DNA from: an uncultured Clostridia bacterium
GTDB lineage: Bacteria > Bacillota > Clostridia > Christensenellales > UBA1242
Direction: 5' to 3'
NCBI GenBank assembly: GCA_944349805.1
Contig: CALVNP010000031.1
Location: 1 to 35,324, forward strand
DNA length: 35,324 bases
The position numbers and the translations under genes are program-made. Of the stretch, positions 2,719-35,324 are shown in pieces. Positions within the stretch are counted from its first letter, which is position 1; each line of letters starts with the position of its first letter. Under the pieces are notes generated by a model. That model made no database searches and was not told where the DNA came from. It saw only the letters and a list, made by a program, of their open reading frames with translations.

Positions 2719-5700
2719 TTAAGCCGAAATGGGATACAATCCAGCAAAAATTAGTATTCCAGAGAAATCACCTAAAGCATCACTATTGATTTTAGCTTCT
2801 ATTAAATTTAATTTTTCAGAATTTCCTTCTTTTAACTCTATTAAATCATTAGTTAGTGTTACGGCAACACTTACAAGCAATAAATTTGAATCTGTTTTTG
2901 CACTCTGTTTAATTGTTTCAACACCTGTCAACAAAGCATTTATGCTTGTATGATAAGCTTGAAGTGCTGGGTTTTGCAATAAAGCCTTATATAAATTTAT
3001 ATTTGTTTGAATAGTGTTGTAAAGTGTATAATCACAAAGATAAACAATTTTTTCTTGGTCAGAAAGCTGATTTAACACCTTAAGACCATTTGTTAAATCC
3101 CCACCAGCTAATGCACTTATTTTGTTTTTTATTACCTGCTTTATAGGTGTATAGTTGCTTTGCAAAGCATTATTTACTGTATTAATAACAGTACTATCAC
3201 CATTTAGGAATGTCGCAATTTCACTTGTTCCGTTGTCTTGTGTTATATCTGTAACGAAATCAGATGATGCTAAGTAACCTCCTACTAATCCTGTTAACAA
3301 TAACAAATCTTCCACATCACTAATTTTACTCACTCCACCAAGATATACATTTCCCAAAGCTGTTGTTATAGCATTGTTATAATATCCAGATTTTCTTTCT
3401 ATTGTTGTATATTTTTCAACACCACCTTCAATGCCATCAAAATAATTAATAACAATTTGAGAATCTACTGTTTTATTCACAACACAATTTGTTCCATTAA
3501 TATCATACTTTTCATTTGGGTTATATTTGTTAACCAAGTAATTACCGTTTCTAACAAGGTATGTTCCACTAACATAAGTTTCCCAACCATCTTCACTGCC
3601 AACATTTGTTATTGTGTTATTAATTGAAACATGATTTTTTTCTCTTCCAAATTGAATAGCGAAATTAAACATTTCATATTCTGTTTCTTCAATTATTTCG
3701 TCTTTTACAACAGTTTTTCCAAGTGTTTCAATTTGTGTATTTAAAGTTCCCTTTAATGATGGAACAATTTGAGAAAGTCCATTCACAATAAAGTAACCTT
3801 CCGTACCTGAAACATAGTTATCTATAACTACATTTTGTCCAAATGTTAGGGTTGCATCCATCCATTCTGGACTATATTCATCAGTAACGGTTGCATCAGT
3901 AATACAAACTGCAGCACCACCTGCTCTGCTTATTGTAGAATTGTTTAATTTAACGACTGATGTTCTCCAACCCAAAATTCCATTGCCCCAAGAATCGTTT
4001 ATTAAGGTGTTGTTTAAATCCACTCCACCACAAACACCTGTTGCATACAAACCGATGTTTGTTCTAAGAACTACAACATTATTTGTATTGACTTGAACTG
4101 CTCCTCTTCCCATAATTCCAGCGTGTGAAGAACCCTGATTTGCAATAGTTTCTGCCTCATCTTCCAATATTTCATCACCTGTTTCATACAAAATCCCCGT
4201 AGATGTATTTCCTTCAACTTTTAAATTATACAAATTAAAGTTTACAGGATTCTCTTTTTCAACACCATTATCATAAGCATCTTGTGTGTTTTCTTGAACT
4301 TTAAATATGGCTGTTTGAATACTTGCACAAGGGTATCCACTGCTTTGGGTCCAGCTTAAAGGGTCGTGGGATGAATAACCACTTCCTGCATCTTGAACAG
4401 TTAAGTATGGCAACTTTGTCCCATCAATTTTAAAATAATTTCCATACACATTGACTTCTGCTCCAACAGAAAAATCAATTTCATCTTCTGTATATAATCT
4501 AGTATAAATATCTCCCGTTATACCATTATTGCTTGTCAATTCACTAAAATTAATAACTCTTCCATAAGGATCTAATTGGTTGTTATTTACTTTTGCAACA
4601 ATATTTGAATGAATGATAAAATTAGTGATATCTAAATTAGAAAAATTTTCTTTTAATTCTTCGTGAGAATAAACATTTATACCTTCAACAAGCACAAAAT
4701 TGAATGTTAATGCATCTTTGTTTAAAAAATTATATTTTGGTGAAATTTGCACTTCATATTCTTTTCCAACATTATTAGAAGCAAATGTCAATGTTCTATC
4801 ATTATTAATAGAGAACACTTCTGAATTTTCTACCAAAACCTTTTCGCCACCAACTACTTCATATGTAACATATAATAATTCTGCATTTGCCAAGTCAATG
4901 TTATCATAATTGTTATCTTGTATTACAATGTCAAAATGGAAGGCATTATCAACACCAATCTGATATTTTTGAGCATTCTTATTTAAGAAGTTAGCTGAAA
5001 TTGTTTCATTATTTAAATTATTTACAGTTTCAATATAGCCCGAATAAGAAATTCCCATCATAAACGCATTTACAAATTCAACAACTTGAACATTTTGTGT
5101 TTTTCCCGTACCATTAAAATTAAATTTTAAAACAAACTCACCTTTTGTAAATGTTTCTAAAACATCTTCATTTAAACTAGCAACTTCTGTTTCAGAAATG
5201 TCTATTTCCCCTTCACTTACTAATGAATATTTCACACCTTGATAAAGATAAAGAGTATCGTTTTCAGTTTTAGAAAGATTAACTTCCCCTACATCACTGC
5301 CAAATTCTAAATTCCCAAGATTGTCTAAATTAACATTTAAACCTGCCTCACTGGTTGCTGGCCAAACAAGTTGAGCAACTGCCTTTTGTTGAGAGGAATC
5401 CTTTGCTTCCAAAGTTATAAAAACACTATCTTCCTTTAAAAATGTAACCAAGCCGTTTTCATCAACTGTTGCAATGCTTGTGTTAGACGATTTAAAATTA
5501 ACTGTTTTATATGTTGCATTTGAAGGAGCAACTGTATAATCTATTTTAAATGTTTTATTACCATTAACAACAGTCGTATTTTCATCTTTCATCATAAAAC
5601 GGCTTACAGTGTAACCACCACTGTTATAAGTATCATATTTTTCCGTAGTTATTGTTATAGAATTAACATAAATTTCCTTGTTATGTAAGTCTGGATTTGA

Positions 5701-5775
5701 TCCTACGATTGCAATAATTACAATAGCAATAACAGCTACGACACCAGCAATTATAGGTATAAATTTTTTTGCCAT
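2719..5775 (-). CDS. Membrane-anchored surface protein with Ig-like (BIG2) domain and beta-helix-like region
   Basis: A 1018-aa protein I cannot assign to a named family. The N-terminus (residues 1-25) is two lysines and a long hydrophobic helix with no cysteine lipobox, so an uncleaved anchor or signal peptide. Residues about 34-140 form a BIG2-type Ig-like domain (SNTSIATVDENGLVTF). Residues about 510-655 contain short repeated strands with N-rich turns (VEGNTSTGILY, LRTNIGLYATG, LNNSTISRAGG) that look like a right-handed parallel beta-helix. The C-terminal third is helical and ends without LPXTG. Start: ATG with AAAGGAGT upstream, 11 nt after the ABC permease stop, so it belongs to the exporter operon and may be its cargo or an extracellular partner. 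Confidence 0.75.
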   Translation of the reverse strand: MAKKFIPIIAGVVAVIAIVIIAIVGSNPDLHNKEIYVNSITITTEKYDTYNSGGYTVSRFMMKDENTTVVNGNKTFKIDYTVAPSNATYKTVNFKSSNTSIATVDENGLVTFLKEDSVFITLEAKDSSQQKAVAQLVWPATSEAGLNVNLDNLGNLEFGSDVGEVNLSKTENDTLYLYQGVKYSLVSEGEIDISETEVASLNEDVLETFTKGEFVLKFNFNGTGKTQNVQVVEFVNAFMMGISYSGYIETVNNLNNETISANFLNKNAQKYQIGVDNAFHFDIVIQDNNYDNIDLANAELLYVTYEVVGGEKVLVENSEVFSINNDRTLTFASNNVGKEYEVQISPKYNFLNKDALTFNFVLVEGINVYSHEELKENFSNLDITNFIIHSNIVAKVNNNQLDPYGRVINFSELTSNNGITGDIYTRLYTEDEIDFSVGAEVNVYGNYFKIDGTKLPYLTVQDAGSGYSSHDPLSWTQSSGYPCASIQTAIFKVQENTQDAYDNGVEKENPVNFNLYNLKVEGNTSTGILYETGDEILEDEAETIANQGSSHAGIMGRGAVQVNTNNVVVLRTNIGLYATGVCGGVDLNNTLINDSWGNGILGWRTSVVKLNNSTISRAGGAAVCITDATVTDEYSPEWMDATLTFGQNVVIDNYVSGTEGYFIVNGLSQIVPSLKGTLNTQIETLGKTVVKDEIIEETEYEMFNFAIQFGREKNHVSINNTITNVGSEDGWETYVSGTYLVRNGNYLVNKYNPNEKYDINGTNCVVNKTVDSQIVINYFDGIEGGVEKYTTIERKSGYYNNAITTALGNVYLGGVSKISDVEDLLLLTGLVGGYLASSDFVTDITQDNGTSEIATFLNGDSTVINTVNNALQSNYTPIKQVIKNKISALAGGDLTNGLKVLNQLSDQEKIVYLCDYTLYNTIQTNINLYKALLQNPALQAYHTSINALLTGVETIKQSAKTDSNLLLVSVAVTLTNDLIELKEGNSEKLNLIEAKINSDALGDFSGILIFAGLYPISA

Positions 5776-28449: not shown

Positions 28450-28893
28450 TTAAATTTTTTTGGAATATCTTTTTATTTCCATTTCAGCAGATTTTTGTTT
28501 TAAACTTTCCCTTTTATCGTAAAGTTTTTTACCTTTTGCTAATCCACATTCAATTTTAACTATGCCATTATTAATATATACTTTCAATGGAATCAATGTG
28601 TTACCTGAAACATCACATTTCTTTTTAAGTTTTAAAATTTCAGCTTTATTTAGCAAAAGTTTTCTAGTTCTTTTTTCATTTGGTGCAAATGATGAAGTTT
28701 TATCATATTGTTTAATATATGCATTTTTTAAAAAGACTTCTCCATCTTTAATGATGATAAAAGCCTCATTTATACTTATTCCACCATCTCTAACCGACTT
28801 CACCTCACTACCTTCAAGCATAACCCCAGCTTCAAAATTGTCCGAGATAAAATAGTTATGATAAGCTTTTTTATTTGTTGTAATAACCTTCAT
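28450..28893 (-). CDS. smpB: SsrA-binding protein SmpB
   Basis: 147-aa SmpB, the partner that carries tmRNA into the A site of stalled ribosomes. Typical segments: NYFISDNFEAGVMLEGSEVKS, SINEAFIIIKDGEVFLKNAYI, RTRKLLLNKAEI, and KGKKLYDKRE with the basic C-terminal tail that lies in the mRNA channel. The ATG has no Shine-Dalgarno sequence, and TATAAT ends 7 nt upstream, so the mRNA is probably leaderless. The tmRNA begins 3 nt after the stop codon, so both are probably on one transcript that must be processed. Confidence 0.96.
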   Translation of the reverse strand: MKVITTNKKAYHNYFISDNFEAGVMLEGSEVKSVRDGGISINEAFIIIKDGEVFLKNAYIKQYDKTSSFAPNEKRTRKLLLNKAEILKLKKKCDVSGNTLIPLKVYINNGIVKIECGLAKGKKLYDKRESLKQKSAEMEIKRYSKKI

Positions 28894-28958: not shown

Positions 28959-30668
28959 TTATTTTTCCAACCCACCATTTTTCTGAGATTGGACATAATT
29001 TGCAATCATATCACTTATCATCTGAGAATCTGACAATGTTTTAACAATATGCCTAATCTCTTTTTCTGGTAAATACCCCACTAATTCATTTTGCCTAGCA
29101 CTAGCAAAAGCAACAAAAAATTTTCTTCTTTCTTCAAGTGGTCTAACCAACCCAACCTTTACTTTCTTAGCTTCAACTATTGTTGAGCTAGTACTTCTTA
29201 TATCTTTTCTTTCAGAAGGTTTGCCAAAAAATTGCTTTGCGTGAGTCAATTGGTTGTATATTTCAGATGTATTTTTTCTTTCTTCTCCCTTTTGAGTTCT
29301 ACATTGTTTTGCTAGTTCCCTACAAGCTTTGCTAAGTTCTGAATATACCACTTTGTTAAATATGTTTTTTAACGATTTTTCTGAAACTAATTGTACTGAG
29401 TCAAGTTTCCCACTATATATTTTTTTATAATTAACCTGTTCTTCTGTTTCCATATCTTCTTGCTCATCTATAGCACTAACAAAATCCGGAGTATTGGGTC
29501 CATCGTCTATCTCATTTTGTCCTTCTTTTATTCCATCAGTTCTTCCAGGTAACAAAATTACTTCTTGCTCATCTTCAGAATTGTTTTGTATATCTTCATC
29601 TTCTTGAAGTCCTTGAGCTAGCAACCACTTTTCCGTCGCTTTTAAAAGTTCTTGCCTTTGCGCTCCCTTTAATGTTCCTGCAAAATGGCTTTTGCTTTCA
29701 ATTTTTGCAGTATTTTCAAAATGCATATCATCACTGTAATCGCTAAATTTACCTATTATCTTTTTTGCAATATTGTCTGGCATAGGCGAATTAAACATTA
29801 CATTATGTCTCTCTCCATAAAGAACTTCATAGAGTGATACTGGTTCTTCTTTATACCTATAGCCTATTTGAGTTAATGTTCTATAAATATCAAGCTCGGA
29901 TTTTTCTGACACTTTTAAAAATCTTGCGACAGCTCTTTCAGTTTGAAAACTTATATTTCGCAATGTATCTGCCGAAGCATTTCCTAAAGCTGCTATTGAA
30001 TTTGAAATTTGCAATCTTAAAGCATTATCAATTTTCCTATTAAAATCAAATCCTAAATCATAACTTTCAGCAATAAACATTGTTGTCATAAGTTCCACAA
30101 TAAATTTTTCTCTATCTGACATCTCACTGCTTAACTGATTTTTTATGCTTTCCTTTGCAATTAAATTAAATAGTACAACTAATTTATCTACTTCCGTCAA
30201 ATTTTGACCATTATATGTTTGGGTCAACCTTATGTTTTTACCTTTAACAACTGCTGGTACTGACAATCTTTCATTGTCCTTAATTTTAACACCAAACTGA
30301 TGTTCTATATCTTTTACAATTGATTTAAAATTGGGGCATATATTTTCGTCTTTACCAAAATATTTTTTAATTGCACCATAATTCCCTGTAATTGGACACC
30401 TTAAAGATAATGCTTTATCTCGTAAAGCAAACGAAGAGTGTCCATTTTTTGTGTAGCTAGGAACACCTATCATAACATCTTTACCATAAATCATAGCAGA
30501 ATCTATGTATAAAGGGTCAGCCGTTGTTTGAAACCTTGTGACTAGTTTAGTAGAATCGAGGTCAAAATCATAATCATAACCCATCATAGTTAATGCGTCG
30601 TGGTCATTTTCAAGATAGTCTACAAAATCTTCATATGTTTCTTTTGTCATCAAGTCCTTATAAAGCAT
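28959..30668 (-). CDS. Unrecognised 569-aa protein next to the VirB4-like ATPase
   Basis: I cannot assign a family. No signal peptide or membrane segment is visible. Three parts can be seen: a globular N-terminal region (about 1-345) with two cysteines in RCPITG and ICPNF; an acidic, proline- and glutamine-containing linker (about 350-410); and a basic helical C-terminal region (about 415-569). It is well expressed in form: GGAGG 5 nt before the ATG, a near-consensus promoter and its own terminator. It follows the VirB4-like gene by about 70 nt, so it may be a cytosolic partner or substrate of that ATPase; this is inference from position only. Confidence 0.8.
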   Translation of the reverse strand: MLYKDLMTKETYEDFVDYLENDHDALTMMGYDYDFDLDSTKLVTRFQTTADPLYIDSAMIYGKDVMIGVPSYTKNGHSSFALRDKALSLRCPITGNYGAIKKYFGKDENICPNFKSIVKDIEHQFGVKIKDNERLSVPAVVKGKNIRLTQTYNGQNLTEVDKLVVLFNLIAKESIKNQLSSEMSDREKFIVELMTTMFIAESYDLGFDFNRKIDNALRLQISNSIAALGNASADTLRNISFQTERAVARFLKVSEKSELDIYRTLTQIGYRYKEEPVSLYEVLYGERHNVMFNSPMPDNIAKKIIGKFSDYSDDMHFENTAKIESKSHFAGTLKGAQRQELLKATEKWLLAQGLQEDEDIQNNSEDEQEVILLPGRTDGIKEGQNEIDDGPNTPDFVSAIDEQEDMETEEQVNYKKIYSGKLDSVQLVSEKSLKNIFNKVVYSELSKACRELAKQCRTQKGEERKNTSEIYNQLTHAKQFFGKPSERKDIRSTSSTIVEAKKVKVGLVRPLEERRKFFVAFASARQNELVGYLPEKEIRHIVKTLSDSQMISDMIANYVQSQKNGGLEK

Positions 30669-30741: not shown

Positions 30742-33369
30742 TTAATCTTGACTAAAAATTCTCTTTACATAATCATAAGCAACAATTTGAACCATTGTTC
30801 TGCTCATTGGACCTGTTATTAAGAAAGCTTGTCCGACACCAGCTGTAACAATGCTGTTTTGTTCTTCTTCGTTAATTTCTCCAGATTTACTATAAAGTTC
30901 AACTAAATCATTTATATCATTTGGAGAAAGCGAGAATATGAAGGAATACTGACTTGCATTGATAACTGCCGTTGATTGTCTCTGAATTTCTGGAGAGCCC
31001 ACAAAGTCCTTTATGTTTTGAGTAATAACAATTTGCATACCATTGTACTTACGAATACGCTTTGCCATTTGAGCCATAAAGTCCAATGCTATTGGATAAT
31101 TAGGATTAATAAATACGTGAGCTTCATCTACAGCAACAACTATTTTTCTTTTTACATTAAATCTTTCGTTGAAATCTTTATTTTTAATAATCTCATTATC
31201 AAGATATTTGAAAATTAATAACATTTGAGCATTAGCGATAACTTGGTTTCTATTTGCAAGCAAGGACCTAAAATTAAATGTAACAAAGTTTTCTTTTGTT
31301 TCCATACTTGTTGGGCCATTCCACAAGTTTGCATTTCTTCCACCACTAGCAAATTTTTTTACATAAGTTTCAACAGTCATATAATTTCTTTTTTCAAAAT
31401 CGTTTTGAGCTGTTTTAATTTTTTCAACAATATATTTATACAAATCATCAAAAATTGGAAAATCCTTTGGTTTTAATTTAGAAAGTTCAACACCTGGTCC
31501 TATTCCCTTTTGTTTATAAACCTCAACAACTGCTGAGTTTAAAACTTCAAAAGAATCGCTGTTCATTCCTTCCATAATAACTTTAAAAAACTGTTCCAAG
31601 AATTGCAAGTGTATTGAATATGAATCATCACTTCCACCCTCATCTGCTTCAAGAGATGTTATGATGTGAAATGGATTAATAATTCCCATAGCAGAAGAAC
31701 CAACATCAATCCATTTTCCTCTTAAATTTTTTGAAAGTTGAGTATACTCATCTTCTGGGTCTAAAATAAACACTTTTGTATTGTCGGCAGCGAAGTTGGC
31801 AAGAAGAGTTTTTGTTGCGTAACTTTTTCCTGATCCAGACTTACCAATAATCATCATATTACTGTTAACTCTTTCTCTATCGCGTTTAAAGAAATCAACA
31901 AAAACAGGGAATTCATTATAACCAATGTAAAAACCATTTGGATCTTGAAGAGCACTAGAAACAAATGGGAAAATAGAGGCAAGTGTAGAAGTTGGAAGAC
32001 CTCTTTTGGTGTTTTCAATATTATCTCTCATAGAAATATTAGAACTTACAAAAGCATCTACTTGTCGACCAAACATTTCAGAATACCTAAATCCTTGTTG
32101 CTTCAAAATTGCTCTAACTTCTTTTCTTGCAGGTTCTTCACAAGTGATAAATATGTTAATGTCATAAAGTTGTTGATTGTTGTTTTTTAAGCTTGCAAGC
32201 AAATCTTTTAATGTTTGTAAGTGTGTTTCATTTTCTATTTGTCTACTACTTCTTGTAACTTTGGAAACTTTTGTCTCCATTTCCATAATTGCCTTATCAA
32301 TTGCAGTTTCTGCCTTATATTTTTGAATAGGTTTAATTTTTGTTATTACCCTTGTTCTATCTAATCTATAAAATGGATATCCCCACGCATTTGGGACTTG
32401 AAGGGGATAATCACTTACCACGAATTGACGATATGCCTTATCATCAATGATAACTCTGTTTGCTTGAAACCTTATCTTGTTTGGTGTTGCCCAATCTATA
32501 TGTTTTGAAAATGGTAAGCTGTCAAGTTCACGCTCGTCGAATTCTTTTCCAAAATTTGCACGAAGGAAAACAGCTAAATCATTACCTACTACCCTCTCTG
32601 TATGCATAGGCGTTGGAGAATTTTGCATAGTATTCATAATACCATTTATTGTATTTTCCAAAACTTCTTTATCTTTATCGTAAACAACAATGTAAAAATA
32701 ATCTTTAAAAATTTTTTCATCTCTGTTCATAGATTCCATTCTGGATACTCTTTCTTCAAAAACACCAGAACGGACCTCGACTTCTTGTGGACTAATTTCA
32801 CCCTCGTATTGCAGTTCTAATAAGTTATCATATTTTTTATCTTCACTGTAAATATAAGAATCCAAAATCATAGCTTTATTGATTTTAACAATAGAAGCAG
32901 ATTGTTCATCTGACAATCTTCTAAGAGCATTAGCAAATGTTTCAATAACCATCTCTTGTTTATATTCATTTAAAAGTCCAAATTCTAAAGGATAAACTTC
33001 AATGACCATTGCATAATAATCTTTAAAATCAATAAACCTGTCCTGAACAATATCAACAAATGGTATTATTTCAGTTACAGGATAATACTTTTTGTTTTTT
33101 TCTTTTGAATATCTCTTCTTTTGTGCTAAAAATCTAATTGCATATCCCAAAGTTTGATACAACCTTACATCATCAGCAACTTTAAAATACATACTAACAA
33201 TAATAGAAATCCAAGCAATACCTAACCAAATACCCAAATTGTTTGGCAAACCACTTAAAAATAATCCAAGACCTACAGCAACTCCAATAAAAGCTAAAAT
33301 AATGTCACCTAAGGTAACATTTTTAATAAACTCCATTTTTACTTTGGTTCTTCTTGGAATAACTTTCAT
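30742..33369 (-). CDS. VirB4/TraC-like membrane-associated ATPase
   Basis: 875 aa. Two close N-terminal hydrophobic segments (about 18-40 and 44-62) precede a VirB4-type N-terminal domain and a FtsK/HerA-family motor domain with Walker A GKSGSGKS at 509-516, LDPEDEY shortly after, and Walker B VAVDEAH with DEAH at 748-751. The final QNIKDFVGSPEIQRQSTAVI and LITGPMSRTMVQI are typical of VirB4/TraE of Gram-positive conjugative elements. VirB4 energises type IV secretion; the N-terminal helices suggest a fused VirB3- or PrgI-like anchor. No relaxase, coupling protein, VirB6 or VirB1-like hydrolase is in the window. ATG with AAGGAT upstream. Confidence 0.9.
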   Translation of the reverse strand: MKVIPRRTKVKMEFIKNVTLGDIILAFIGVAVGLGLFLSGLPNNLGIWLGIAWISIIVSMYFKVADDVRLYQTLGYAIRFLAQKKRYSKEKNKKYYPVTEIIPFVDIVQDRFIDFKDYYAMVIEVYPLEFGLLNEYKQEMVIETFANALRRLSDEQSASIVKINKAMILDSYIYSEDKKYDNLLELQYEGEISPQEVEVRSGVFEERVSRMESMNRDEKIFKDYFYIVVYDKDKEVLENTINGIMNTMQNSPTPMHTERVVGNDLAVFLRANFGKEFDERELDSLPFSKHIDWATPNKIRFQANRVIIDDKAYRQFVVSDYPLQVPNAWGYPFYRLDRTRVITKIKPIQKYKAETAIDKAIMEMETKVSKVTRSSRQIENETHLQTLKDLLASLKNNNQQLYDINIFITCEEPARKEVRAILKQQGFRYSEMFGRQVDAFVSSNISMRDNIENTKRGLPTSTLASIFPFVSSALQDPNGFYIGYNEFPVFVDFFKRDRERVNSNMMIIGKSGSGKSYATKTLLANFAADNTKVFILDPEDEYTQLSKNLRGKWIDVGSSAMGIINPFHIITSLEADEGGSDDSYSIHLQFLEQFFKVIMEGMNSDSFEVLNSAVVEVYKQKGIGPGVELSKLKPKDFPIFDDLYKYIVEKIKTAQNDFEKRNYMTVETYVKKFASGGRNANLWNGPTSMETKENFVTFNFRSLLANRNQVIANAQMLLIFKYLDNEIIKNKDFNERFNVKRKIVVAVDEAHVFINPNYPIALDFMAQMAKRIRKYNGMQIVITQNIKDFVGSPEIQRQSTAVINASQYSFIFSLSPNDINDLVELYSKSGEINEEEQNSIVTAGVGQAFLITGPMSRTMVQIVAYDYVKRIFSQD

Positions 33370-33518: not shown

Positions 33519-34628
33519 TCAATTGAATTCAACTATATCTCGATCAGAACTTATATCCATATATTTTGGAATTTTATTTGAATTATCCGTTTTTAAAGTT
33601 AAAAATTCTTTTCTAAATTTGTCCGTCCATAAACCATCACCACTTTCACAAACGACTTTCCAATGCTTTAATAAATCAGCACCCTTTGTGTCTTTAACAA
33701 AATAAAAATTCCACATTGGATCCTTGCTACTTGCAATCACATCGCCGTGAAGTTTTACGTTTGCCCCTTGAACATCTCTTGCGAAATAATAATTTAAAAG
33801 CACATTCCCTTTTTCTGCAACTATATTTCCAAGAGCCAAAACATCTGCATCATCTACTAACAACGTATATTTATAACACCAATAATCATTGCCTGAATTA
33901 ATAACAACTTTTTCGTTTAATTTTTTATTTATTCCACTAATATTAAAAGCAAAGTGAGTGTTAAATTCTGGATTTCGACTTTCCAAAATCACCTTTTGAT
34001 GTAAAAATACGTTTGCAACTTTAATCTGTTTAGCAAAATCATAATTCCAATTCAATGCCCTACTTTCAGCAACAATTTTTCCGTGATTTTCTATGTCTGC
34101 ACCAGCTATATCTCTTGCGAACAAAAAATTATATTGAGGGTCTTTACTTTCCATTATAACTTTTCCGTGAGCAAGTATATCAGCACCCGTAACTTCTTTT
34201 GCAAATTTATAATTTTGCAATACATTTCCATAATTAAGCACAACTTTCCCGTGAGCAAGCACATCAGCATCAAAGATATTCATAGCATACTGTAATGAAA
34301 TGTCTGGATTTTTACATTCCAAAATAACTTTTTCGTGATCTTTTCTATTACAACCTTTAACATCTCTTGCAAATTTATAATTTATAGTTACATTCCCATT
34401 TTGTAAAATTTTTTGTGCAAGCAACTTTACATTTTGCCCTAAACAATTATATTGCGCAAAAGAATATATTTGCTCTGGAGTGCCATACTTAATTAATAAA
34501 TTTTGAAGTTTATCATAATATGGTGTTGTTTTATAAACTTTTTTTCCATTTTCAAACACCACCTTTACTTTTTGTGCTTCTAATAATATTTCCTTTAAAA
34601 ATTCATTAAAACTAATCATTCTAACCAT
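33519..34628 (-). CDS. Protein of ten tandem 28-residue repeats
   Basis: 369 aa from ATG 34626-34628, which has GGAG 6 nt upstream; an in-frame TTG four codons earlier overlaps that site. After a 56-residue helical N-terminus come ten repeats of 27-29 residues with consensus FArDvxGADvxxHgKVvxeSxdPxxNYx, ending in a 32-residue tail. No signal peptide or membrane segment. Similar short helical-repeat proteins occur in Clostridia and are generally unannotated; DUF4116 has a comparable plan, but I cannot confirm membership. Such solenoids usually bind proteins. It lies between rnr and the VirB4-like gene with its own promoter and terminator. Confidence 0.85.
   Translation of the reverse strand: MVRMISFNEFLKEILLEAQKVKVVFENGKKVYKTTPYYDKLQNLLIKYGTPEQIYSFAQYNCLGQNVKLLAQKILQNGNVTINYKFARDVKGCNRKDHEKVILECKNPDISLQYAMNIFDADVLAHGKVVLNYGNVLQNYKFAKEVTGADILAHGKVIMESKDPQYNFLFARDIAGADIENHGKIVAESRALNWNYDFAKQIKVANVFLHQKVILESRNPEFNTHFAFNISGINKKLNEKVVINSGNDYWCYKYTLLVDDADVLALGNIVAEKGNVLLNYYFARDVQGANVKLHGDVIASSKDPMWNFYFVKDTKGADLLKHWKVVCESGDGLWTDKFRKEFLTLKTDNSNKIPKYMDISSDRDIVEFN
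33618..34460 (-). repeat. Ten coding repeats of about 84 bp
   Basis: The ten protein repeats start at residues F57, F86, A115, F142, F170, F198, F226, Y254, F282 and F310. Most conserved are F-A at 1-2, G-A-D/N at 7-9, the H-x-K-V-[IV] core at 13-17 and N-[YF] near the end. At DNA level only short pieces are shared (for example CCGTGAGCAAG occurs more than once), so the array is old rather than freshly expanded. Confidence 0.85.
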
Positions 34629-34645
34629 TTCTTTCTCCAAAATTT

Positions 34646-34708: not shown

Positions 34709-34743
34709 AAAAAAACAAGCAAATTGTAACTAATTTGCCTGTT
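34709..34743 (-). terminator. Terminator of rnr
   Basis: A 12-bp stem (AACAGGCAAATT with AATTTGCTTGTT, one G-U pair, 6-nt loop) followed by T5 on the minus strand. It overlaps the last rnr codons, and the stop codon (34730-34732) is at the loop. Confidence 0.8.
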
Positions 34744-35324
34744 CTTTATTAAAAGTTGTTTTTCGATTTTTTTGCAAAACCTGTTCAAAATCTATTTTAC
34801 GACTAAACATATTGCTTGCAGTAACTTTAACTTTAATTTTATCACCCATAGCATAAGTTCGTCTGTCGCCAATCAATCGGGATTGTTTTTCTACAAACAC
34901 ATAGTTATCTCGTGGTAAATTTTCTAGTTTTATAAGCCCTTCAACAGTATTAGGAAGTTGAACAAAAACACCAAAGTTTGTTACTGTTGAAATAATACCA
35001 TCGTAAATTTCTCCAATGTTTTTAGACATAAATTCAGCTTTCTTTAAATCGTCAACTGCTCTTTCTAAATCATCTGCCCTTCTTTCCGTTTTACTAGATT
35101 GTATACTTGCCTCTATAACAAAATCTTCTAAGTCATAATATTCTTGTTTACTTAGTTCATTCTTTAAACACGATTTTATTATTCTATGTATACATAAATC
35201 CGGATATCTTCTAATTGGTGAAGTAAAATGACAATAATTAGTTGAGGAAAGTCCAAAATGTCCCAAATCCTCCTCTAAGTAGAGTGCCTTTTTAATACTC
35301 ATCAAAATTACTTTGTTTACAACC
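34730..35324 (-). CDS. rnr: Ribonuclease R, C-terminal part
   Basis: Only the last 198 codons are in the window; the 5' part lies to the right and the frame is open to the edge. HFGLSSTNYCHFTSPIRRYPDL is the conserved end of the RNB catalytic domain of RNase II/R, and the following GEIYDGIISTVTNFGVFVQL is the C-terminal S1 RNA-binding domain. RNase R degrades structured RNA and, in complex with SmpB-tmRNA, the mRNAs of stalled ribosomes. In many Bacillota rnr is directly followed by smpB and ssrA; here three other genes lie between. Confidence 0.94.
   Translation of the reverse strand, partial: VVNKVILMSIKKALYLEEDLGHFGLSSTNYCHFTSPIRRYPDLCIHRIIKSCLKNELSKQEYYDLEDFVIEASIQSSKTERRADDLERAVDDLKKAEFMSKNIGEIYDGIISTVTNFGVFVQLPNTVEGLIKLENLPRDNYVFVEKQSRLIGDRRTYAMGDKIKVKVTASNMFSRKIDFEQVLQKNRKTTFNKEQAN

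Follow-up and report, generated by a model that had tools for sequence, protein, structure and literature searches.

A VirB4 ATPase of UBA1242 Clostridia as the probable motor of a domesticated, relaxase-less type IV secretion system

In type IV secretion systems (T4SSs), VirD4 takes in the substrate, the ATPase VirB4 drives transport and the handling of pilin, and VirB6 constitutes the membrane pore. Among the closest described systems is the Mycoplasma/Mollicute ICE module Mbov_0395-0396-0397, which is accompanied by a CD1115-type VirD4 (MPF-FATA); the mycoplasma ICEs are without VirB1- and VirB8-like parts. A second is the T4SS of Patescibacteria, which is chromosomal, mostly without a relaxase, carries VirB2-like pilins and is required for epibiotic growth, as in Southlakia epibionticum (PMC12102498, PMC12857230). 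According to a 2025 review, nearly all known Gram-positive T4SSs move DNA only, dedicated effector transport is a long-standing open question, and pilin-bearing, growth-essential systems are unique to Patescibacteria among monoderms (PMC12857230).

The DNA analyzed here comes from Candidatus Caccopulliclostridium, a genus placed in the GTDB family UBA1242 (PMC8035907). Genomes of this family lack pathways for making amino acids, nucleotides and lipids as well as the standard transporters for uptake, and the bacteria have been suggested to live obligately off other cells, as symbionts or parasites, a lifestyle that is itself genome-inferred; the same description guesses at "intercellular connections" and leaves secretion, VirB and conjugation unmentioned (PMC12306168). 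The machine parts discussed below are known already, and we found no earlier report of a T4SS in UBA1242 in the openly licensed literature, where, for Christensenellales and type IV secretion, a cockroach SAG study mentions T4SSs just generally, for Firmicutes SAGs. We consider it probable that the gene under study, virB4 (30742..33369, minus strand), codes for the motor ATPase of a T4SS that has been domesticated, has no relaxase and is fixed in the chromosome. This T4SS is kept across nearly the whole of UBA1242 and would pass protein out to a partner cell, or take in DNA or other macromolecules from one.

The virB4 gene and its neighbors

The window, the whole stretch of 35,324 nucleotides that was analyzed, contains virB4 as an open reading frame with an ATG start codon and an 875-aa product, a T4SS ATPase of the Mbov_0397 type that falls in the core (non-mobile) clade. 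The original prediction of a VirB4-type ATPase is supported by matches to NCBIfam NF045975 (Mbov_0397-family ICE VirB4; aa 4-872 covered, N-terminal helices included, E=4e-176), to the VirB4 of PDB 4ag5 (1.8e-50) and to the Pfam models P-loop_TraG (2e-21) and HerA/DUF87 (6e-11). Because its NF045975 score of 587.4 bits is 2.6 below the equivalog cut-off of 590, the protein is, as judged by sequence, a close relative of this family and not formally an equivalog. The Pfam model CagE_TrbE_VirB has zero matches in the genome, and this VirB4 would therefore escape detection if that model were the only one used. Both nucleotide-binding motifs are intact, as had been predicted, Walker A as GKSGSGKS at aa 509-516 (31822..31845, minus strand) and the end of Walker B as DEAH at aa 748-751 (31117..31128, minus strand). 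DEAH is kept in 103/103 core VirB4 sequences, as is the P-loop once the variants GKSGGGKS and GKSGCGKS are included. Comparison with the nearest species gives a dN/dS of ~0.02 (0.016/0.79) and hence purifying selection on a functional gene. A defense role was rejected, PADLOC yielding just weak HerA/mad8 ATPase-domain matches, and so was a viral origin, no relative being found in viral_contigs. In one sister-species MAG (G050; L002/L034), virB4 is broken by an in-frame TAA into parts of 499 and 372 aa, through either an assembly error or a real break.

The N-terminal ~95 aa of VirB4 (33085..33369, minus strand) include two hydrophobic, predicted transmembrane helices at about aa 20-39 and 45-63, which are real and conserved in all the relatives read. 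The built-in membrane anchor pointed out in the original prediction is not a special trait; the VirB4 of mycoplasma ICEs and all the relatives read have one too. PrgI is the commonest Pfam match of this segment (6/14 members) but a weak one (best E 0.0075), and in some Gram-positive plasmids a separate small protein occupies the place ahead of VirB4. On these grounds the segment is likely to be a fused VirB3/PrgI-like part.

The 3' part of rnr (34730..35323; RNB and S1 domains), a gene for a 373-aa repeat protein (33519..34640), virB4, a gene for a 569-aa soluble protein (28959..30668) and smpB (28450..28893; SmpB 4e-53) lie in one direction, on the minus strand, with gaps of 65-149 bases, and co-transcription of this run is therefore possible. 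Besides the flanking rnr and smpB, the neighbors are mostly housekeeping genes (nrdDG, transketolase, PFOR and ribosomal genes), and no coupling protein, relaxase or VirB6 is present among the scanned genes of the window, in agreement with the original prediction. Elsewhere in the window, a 1,018-aa protein with a bacterial Ig-like domain (2719-5775) adjoins two ABC-transporter-like genes and may be a surface protein.

Two neighbors had been proposed as partners of VirB4. The 373-aa repeat protein is found between rnr and virB4 in L031 but the interval lacks it in the sister species (L032-L035), so that it is not a conserved part. The 569-aa protein fares better as the conserved neighbor directly downstream of virB4, but it is clade-specific, occurring in only part of the family (21/80 clustered loci), and it evolves faster (dN 0.15 versus 0.016 for virB4, nearest species). 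The gene after virB4 varies by clade and encodes a ~600-aa soluble protein, as here, a 730-760-aa protein, or a ~3,300-aa lipoprotein, the last in about 40 loci (L061-L110, e.g. L061:12779-22660), with a lipobox-like N terminus and no significant Pfam domain.

One domain of the 569-aa protein (29799..30359, minus strand) is predicted (pLDDT 91.6) to have a zincin-like fold of the ArdC C-terminal type with no HExxH, a putative dead protease. Its best solved fold matches are two ArdC entries, with Z scores of 7.7 (6i89, 138 residues aligned, rmsd 4.3) and 7.3, and other zincins rank lower; the gene also sits in the slot that ArdC holds in the mobile copies of the system. The protein lacks an ArdcN match as well as the HExxH motif, two marks of ArdC, and Foldseek gave no significant match. 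Homology to ArdC by sequence was rejected, the profile comparison being no better than shuffled columns. Since a Z score under 8 can reflect a common arrangement, the ArdC-like fold is a lead, backed by fold and gene slot. Comparison of this protein family with the 730-760-aa proteins of the same slot (A3) by hhalign gave a score of 40 and a probability of 25%, column shuffles of a different alignment reaching ≤20.

Other parts of the machine and their distribution

The original prediction regarded VirB4 as an orphan, a view that is ruled out by whole-genome searches. The genome (926 kb, 55 contigs, 98.7% complete) carries VirD4, a T4SS pilin and VirB6 side by side on contig C48, adjoining the S10 ribosomal operon, with virD4 divergent from the pilin and virB6 genes. 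VirD4 is present in a single copy (PF02534 1.4e-50; NF045973, the CD1115 family, above cut-off); the VirB2-like pilin matches PF18895 (7e-8) and scores 35 bits against a cut-off of 40 for NF045849; and VirB6, a protein of 778 aa with seven helices, is above the cut-offs of NF045848 and NF045889. VirB4, VirD4, VirB6 and pilin are thus all present in one genome, and the proposed genome-wide check for VirB6, VirD4 and a relaxase recovered the first two and no relaxase of the families sought, MobL, PF03432 and PF03389. Among the loci read, neither a VirB1-like hydrolase nor a VirB8-like protein was seen. Sister species have a ~2,600-aa surface protein after virD4, and a PRC-barrel protein lies near VirB6 at L171:5785-6471, a similar-looking protein being located immediately ahead of virB4 in many relatives (cluster c6, L061-L110).

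The family was sampled as 98 genomes of these ~1 Mb Clostridia for VirB4 and 96 for VirD4, pilin, VirB6 and relaxases. Matches were obtained in 95/98 genomes for VirB4, 93/96 for VirD4, 93/96 for the pilin and 95/96 for VirB6, with the reservation that VirD4, pilin or VirB6 matches in genomes that bear mobile elements may partly represent the copies of those elements; all four are present in 88/96 genomes by hand count from the match tables. Three genomes have no VirB4 match and two (G038, G073) only a mobile-type VirB4. Some absences look like assembly gaps, such as that of virD4 at a contig end in G050. In an order-level sample with a threshold of 1e-20, VirB4 matches were found in 15/15 members of UBA1242 versus 31/204 others (Fisher p 9e-12). 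The genus of the window has the split arrangement, whereas VirD4, pilin, VirB6 and VirB4 form one cluster in several other genera (G001, G023, G047, L107, L108). The refuting finding named in the original prediction, a complete conjugation gene set adjoining virB4 in close relatives, turned up by half: the four genes are clustered at L103, L107 and L108, but the relaxase is absent.

If the gene were a true orphan, a leftover of an ancestral ICE in decay that has survived by chance, the dispersal of the genes and the interrupted virB4 frame in one sister MAG might be accounted for. This is extremely improbable, since purifying selection and the retention of the system have already largely ruled it out: dN/dS is about 0.02, the P-loop and DEAH are intact throughout the core sequences, and the system is near-universal in reduced genomes.

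Pilin genes are duplicated in several genera, with up to 8 matches per genome (G003, G044), and several VirB6 genes are found in others (G031:C16, G034:C7, G059:C9, G080:C7), the length of VirB6 reaching about 4,100 aa (L234). Secreted or lipoproteins of 2,400-3,300 aa flank virD4 or virB4. An organelle for adhesion or pilus display, in which the T4SS builds pili and shows giant surface proteins to hold a partner with little or no translocation, would suit the pilin duplications and these very large neighbors and has a precedent in the Trw system of Bartonella. However, Trw-type systems are without VirD4, which is kept here, and we regard this explanation as quite improbable.

Relaxases, mobile copies and inheritance

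Relaxases are rare in the family, MobL being present in 18/96 genomes, PF03432 in 7/96 (above cut-off in 1) and PF03389 in 0/96, and no MobL was found across the 107 stretches with a core VirB4, 1.9 Mb in total. A relaxase of these three families linked to virD4 or virB4, the mark of a conjugative system or ICE, is lacking in this genome. Since this genome has none of the tested relaxases, and the family few, although nearly all its members have the machine, the system probably serves a form of translocation other than conjugation, as the original prediction had suggested.

Some genomes have a second VirB4, ~46-47% identical to the fixed copy, inside sporadic integrative elements (L177, L178, L231, L237). 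MobL lies beside VirD4 in L178, L231 and L237 and just past L177 in G012; the L177 element also has an integrase and a DNA methylase. These elements further carry a 1,400-1,500-aa surface protein, a pilin, a short lipoprotein and a short VirB6 (about 465 aa), with an ArdC gene directly after virB4, and the MobL/integrase elements are conjugative relatives of the fixed system. The HExxH of the element-borne ArdC is intact in L177 and L233 and lost in L178, L220, L231, L237 and L242, although the gene is retained.

The proposed phylogenetic check separates the two kinds of VirB4: the fixed copies, 103 of the 126 sequences in the tree, are monophyletic with support 1.0, beside six of the seven mobile copies. 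VirB4 and VirD4 have co-evolved, their distances being strongly correlated (Mantel r=0.95, 13 genomes) though the loci are often separate. The corresponding correlation of VirB4 with RplB, ribosomal protein L2, is r=0.58 (18 genomes), and identities to the window for VirB4 versus RplB in 80 genomes give Pearson 0.63 and Spearman 0.36. These results support a mostly joint, largely vertical inheritance of VirB4 and VirD4; because the correlation with RplB is moderate, some transfer between lineages is possible.

Ordinary conjugation, with resident elements providing the relaxase in trans or with a relaxase from an unrecognized family, would be in keeping with the nearest relatives being true ICEs with integrase or MobL, with the MobL elements found in 18/96 genomes and with a relaxase search that took in three families. 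It is nevertheless improbable: the system is fixed in nearly all genomes, its VirB4 clade is distinct from the ICE copies, it has housekeeping flanks and genes spread over loci, and relaxases of the MobL, PF03432 and PF03389 families are missing from most genomes.

Proposed role and comparison with known systems

In the favored reading of a domesticated T4SS, the machine comprises at least VirB4, probably with the fused VirB3-like segment, the VirD4 coupling ATPase, an extended VirB6 channel and the VirB2-like pilin, and surface proteins of very large size are often encoded beside its genes. In the genus of the window, virB4 lies between rnr and smpB, and virD4, pilin and virB6 adjoin the S10 ribosomal operon. 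On contact with another cell, VirB4 and VirD4 would power assembly and transport through the VirB6 pore and the pilin structure. Since no relaxase of the tested families is present, relaxase-bound plasmid DNA is an unlikely substrate, and the cargo may instead be a protein sent to a partner cell, or DNA or other macromolecules drawn from it. That cell would be the support on which the auxotrophic UBA1242 bacteria, with their genomes of ~1 Mb, depend. Exchange with a partner cell is the likeliest role that we infer, because UBA1242 has been proposed to be partner-dependent and the T4SS of Patescibacteria is needed for epibiotic growth.

A more restricted role as a domesticated machine for DNA import or exchange, similar to archaeal Ced/Ted or Helicobacter ComB, in which pilin, VirB6 and VirB4 take in DNA of neighbors and ComEC completes uptake, for repair or nucleotide supply, is rather unlikely but has to be taken seriously. 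In its favor, ComEC (PF03772) is encoded in 95/96 genomes, this one included, and the T4SS of Patescibacteria has itself been proposed to serve import. Yet ComEC is common in general, and the epibiotic growth of Patescibacteria did not require it. VirD4, which normally passes substrates outwards, is as universal here as VirB4, and ComB is without it. Ced/Ted likewise combines a VirB2-like pilin, a VirB6-like channel and a VirB4-like ATPase, domesticated and chromosomal, with no relaxase (PMC9905601), but Ced is described as four proteins, none of them VirD4-like, and the matches here to the CedD and CedB models are weak and confined to the ATPase domain.

That nearly all members have the machine but few have a relaxase of the tested families suggests a turn to another use, perhaps contact with a partner cell. 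If the favored reading is correct, the "intercellular connections" of UBA1242 (PMC12306168) gain a tangible candidate in this T4SS, and the presence of a T4SS with pilin but no relaxase in almost every member of a second lineage of monoderms with reduced genomes would make the question of Gram-positive effector transport testable by comparison.

On the sequence matches, the UBA1242 system is homologous to the Mbov_0395-0397/CD1115 conjugation type. It resembles the mycoplasma ICE module in the full-length NF045975 match of its VirB4 and in having its own VirB6 (NF045848/NF045889) and VirD4 (NF045973) above cut-offs; it differs in that VirB4 and pilin fall 2.6 and 5 bits, respectively, under the equivalog cut-offs and in that the genes are chromosomally fixed, at two loci here, and near-universal in the family, with the tested relaxases absent from this genome. 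In Mesomycoplasma hyopneumoniae NCTC10127 (L285, a record labelled plasmid 2), an Mbov_0395-0396-0397-0399 module adjoins dprA, between serS/eno and rpsT/aspS, in a stretch with no annotated relaxase, and is possibly another fixed copy. The integrative elements of UBA1242 (L177, L178, L231, L237) share with the fixed system the gene set of VirD4, surface protein, pilin, lipoprotein, VirB6 and VirB4, but are distinguished from it by MobL and/or an integrase, a short VirB6, ArdC after virB4 and sporadic occurrence.

With the T4SS of Patescibacteria the UBA1242 system appears closely parallel, a parallel drawn from gene content. The systems differ in that UBA1242 belongs to the Bacillota, in the N-terminal anchor of VirB4 here as against no VirB3-VirB4 fusions there (PMC12102498), and in location, near dnaA there and at rnr/smpB and the S10 operon here. 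Common to both are a chromosomal, mostly relaxase-less set of VirB4, VirD4, VirB6 and VirB2-like pilins, with several pilin copies, and PF18895 is the pilin model used in that study too (PMC12102498); reduced genomes and a predicted dependence on partners are also shared. The UBA1242 system is thus chromosomal, relaxase-less, pilin-bearing and near-universal in a reduced-genome lineage, the features that mark the Patescibacteria type. It is conceivable, and we put it forward tentatively, that in a lineage of Bacillota, separately from Patescibacteria, a conjugation machine has become fixed and now serves as an organelle essential to life on or off other bacterial cells, giving a Gram-positive, non-conjugative T4SS that practically every member of a family possesses.
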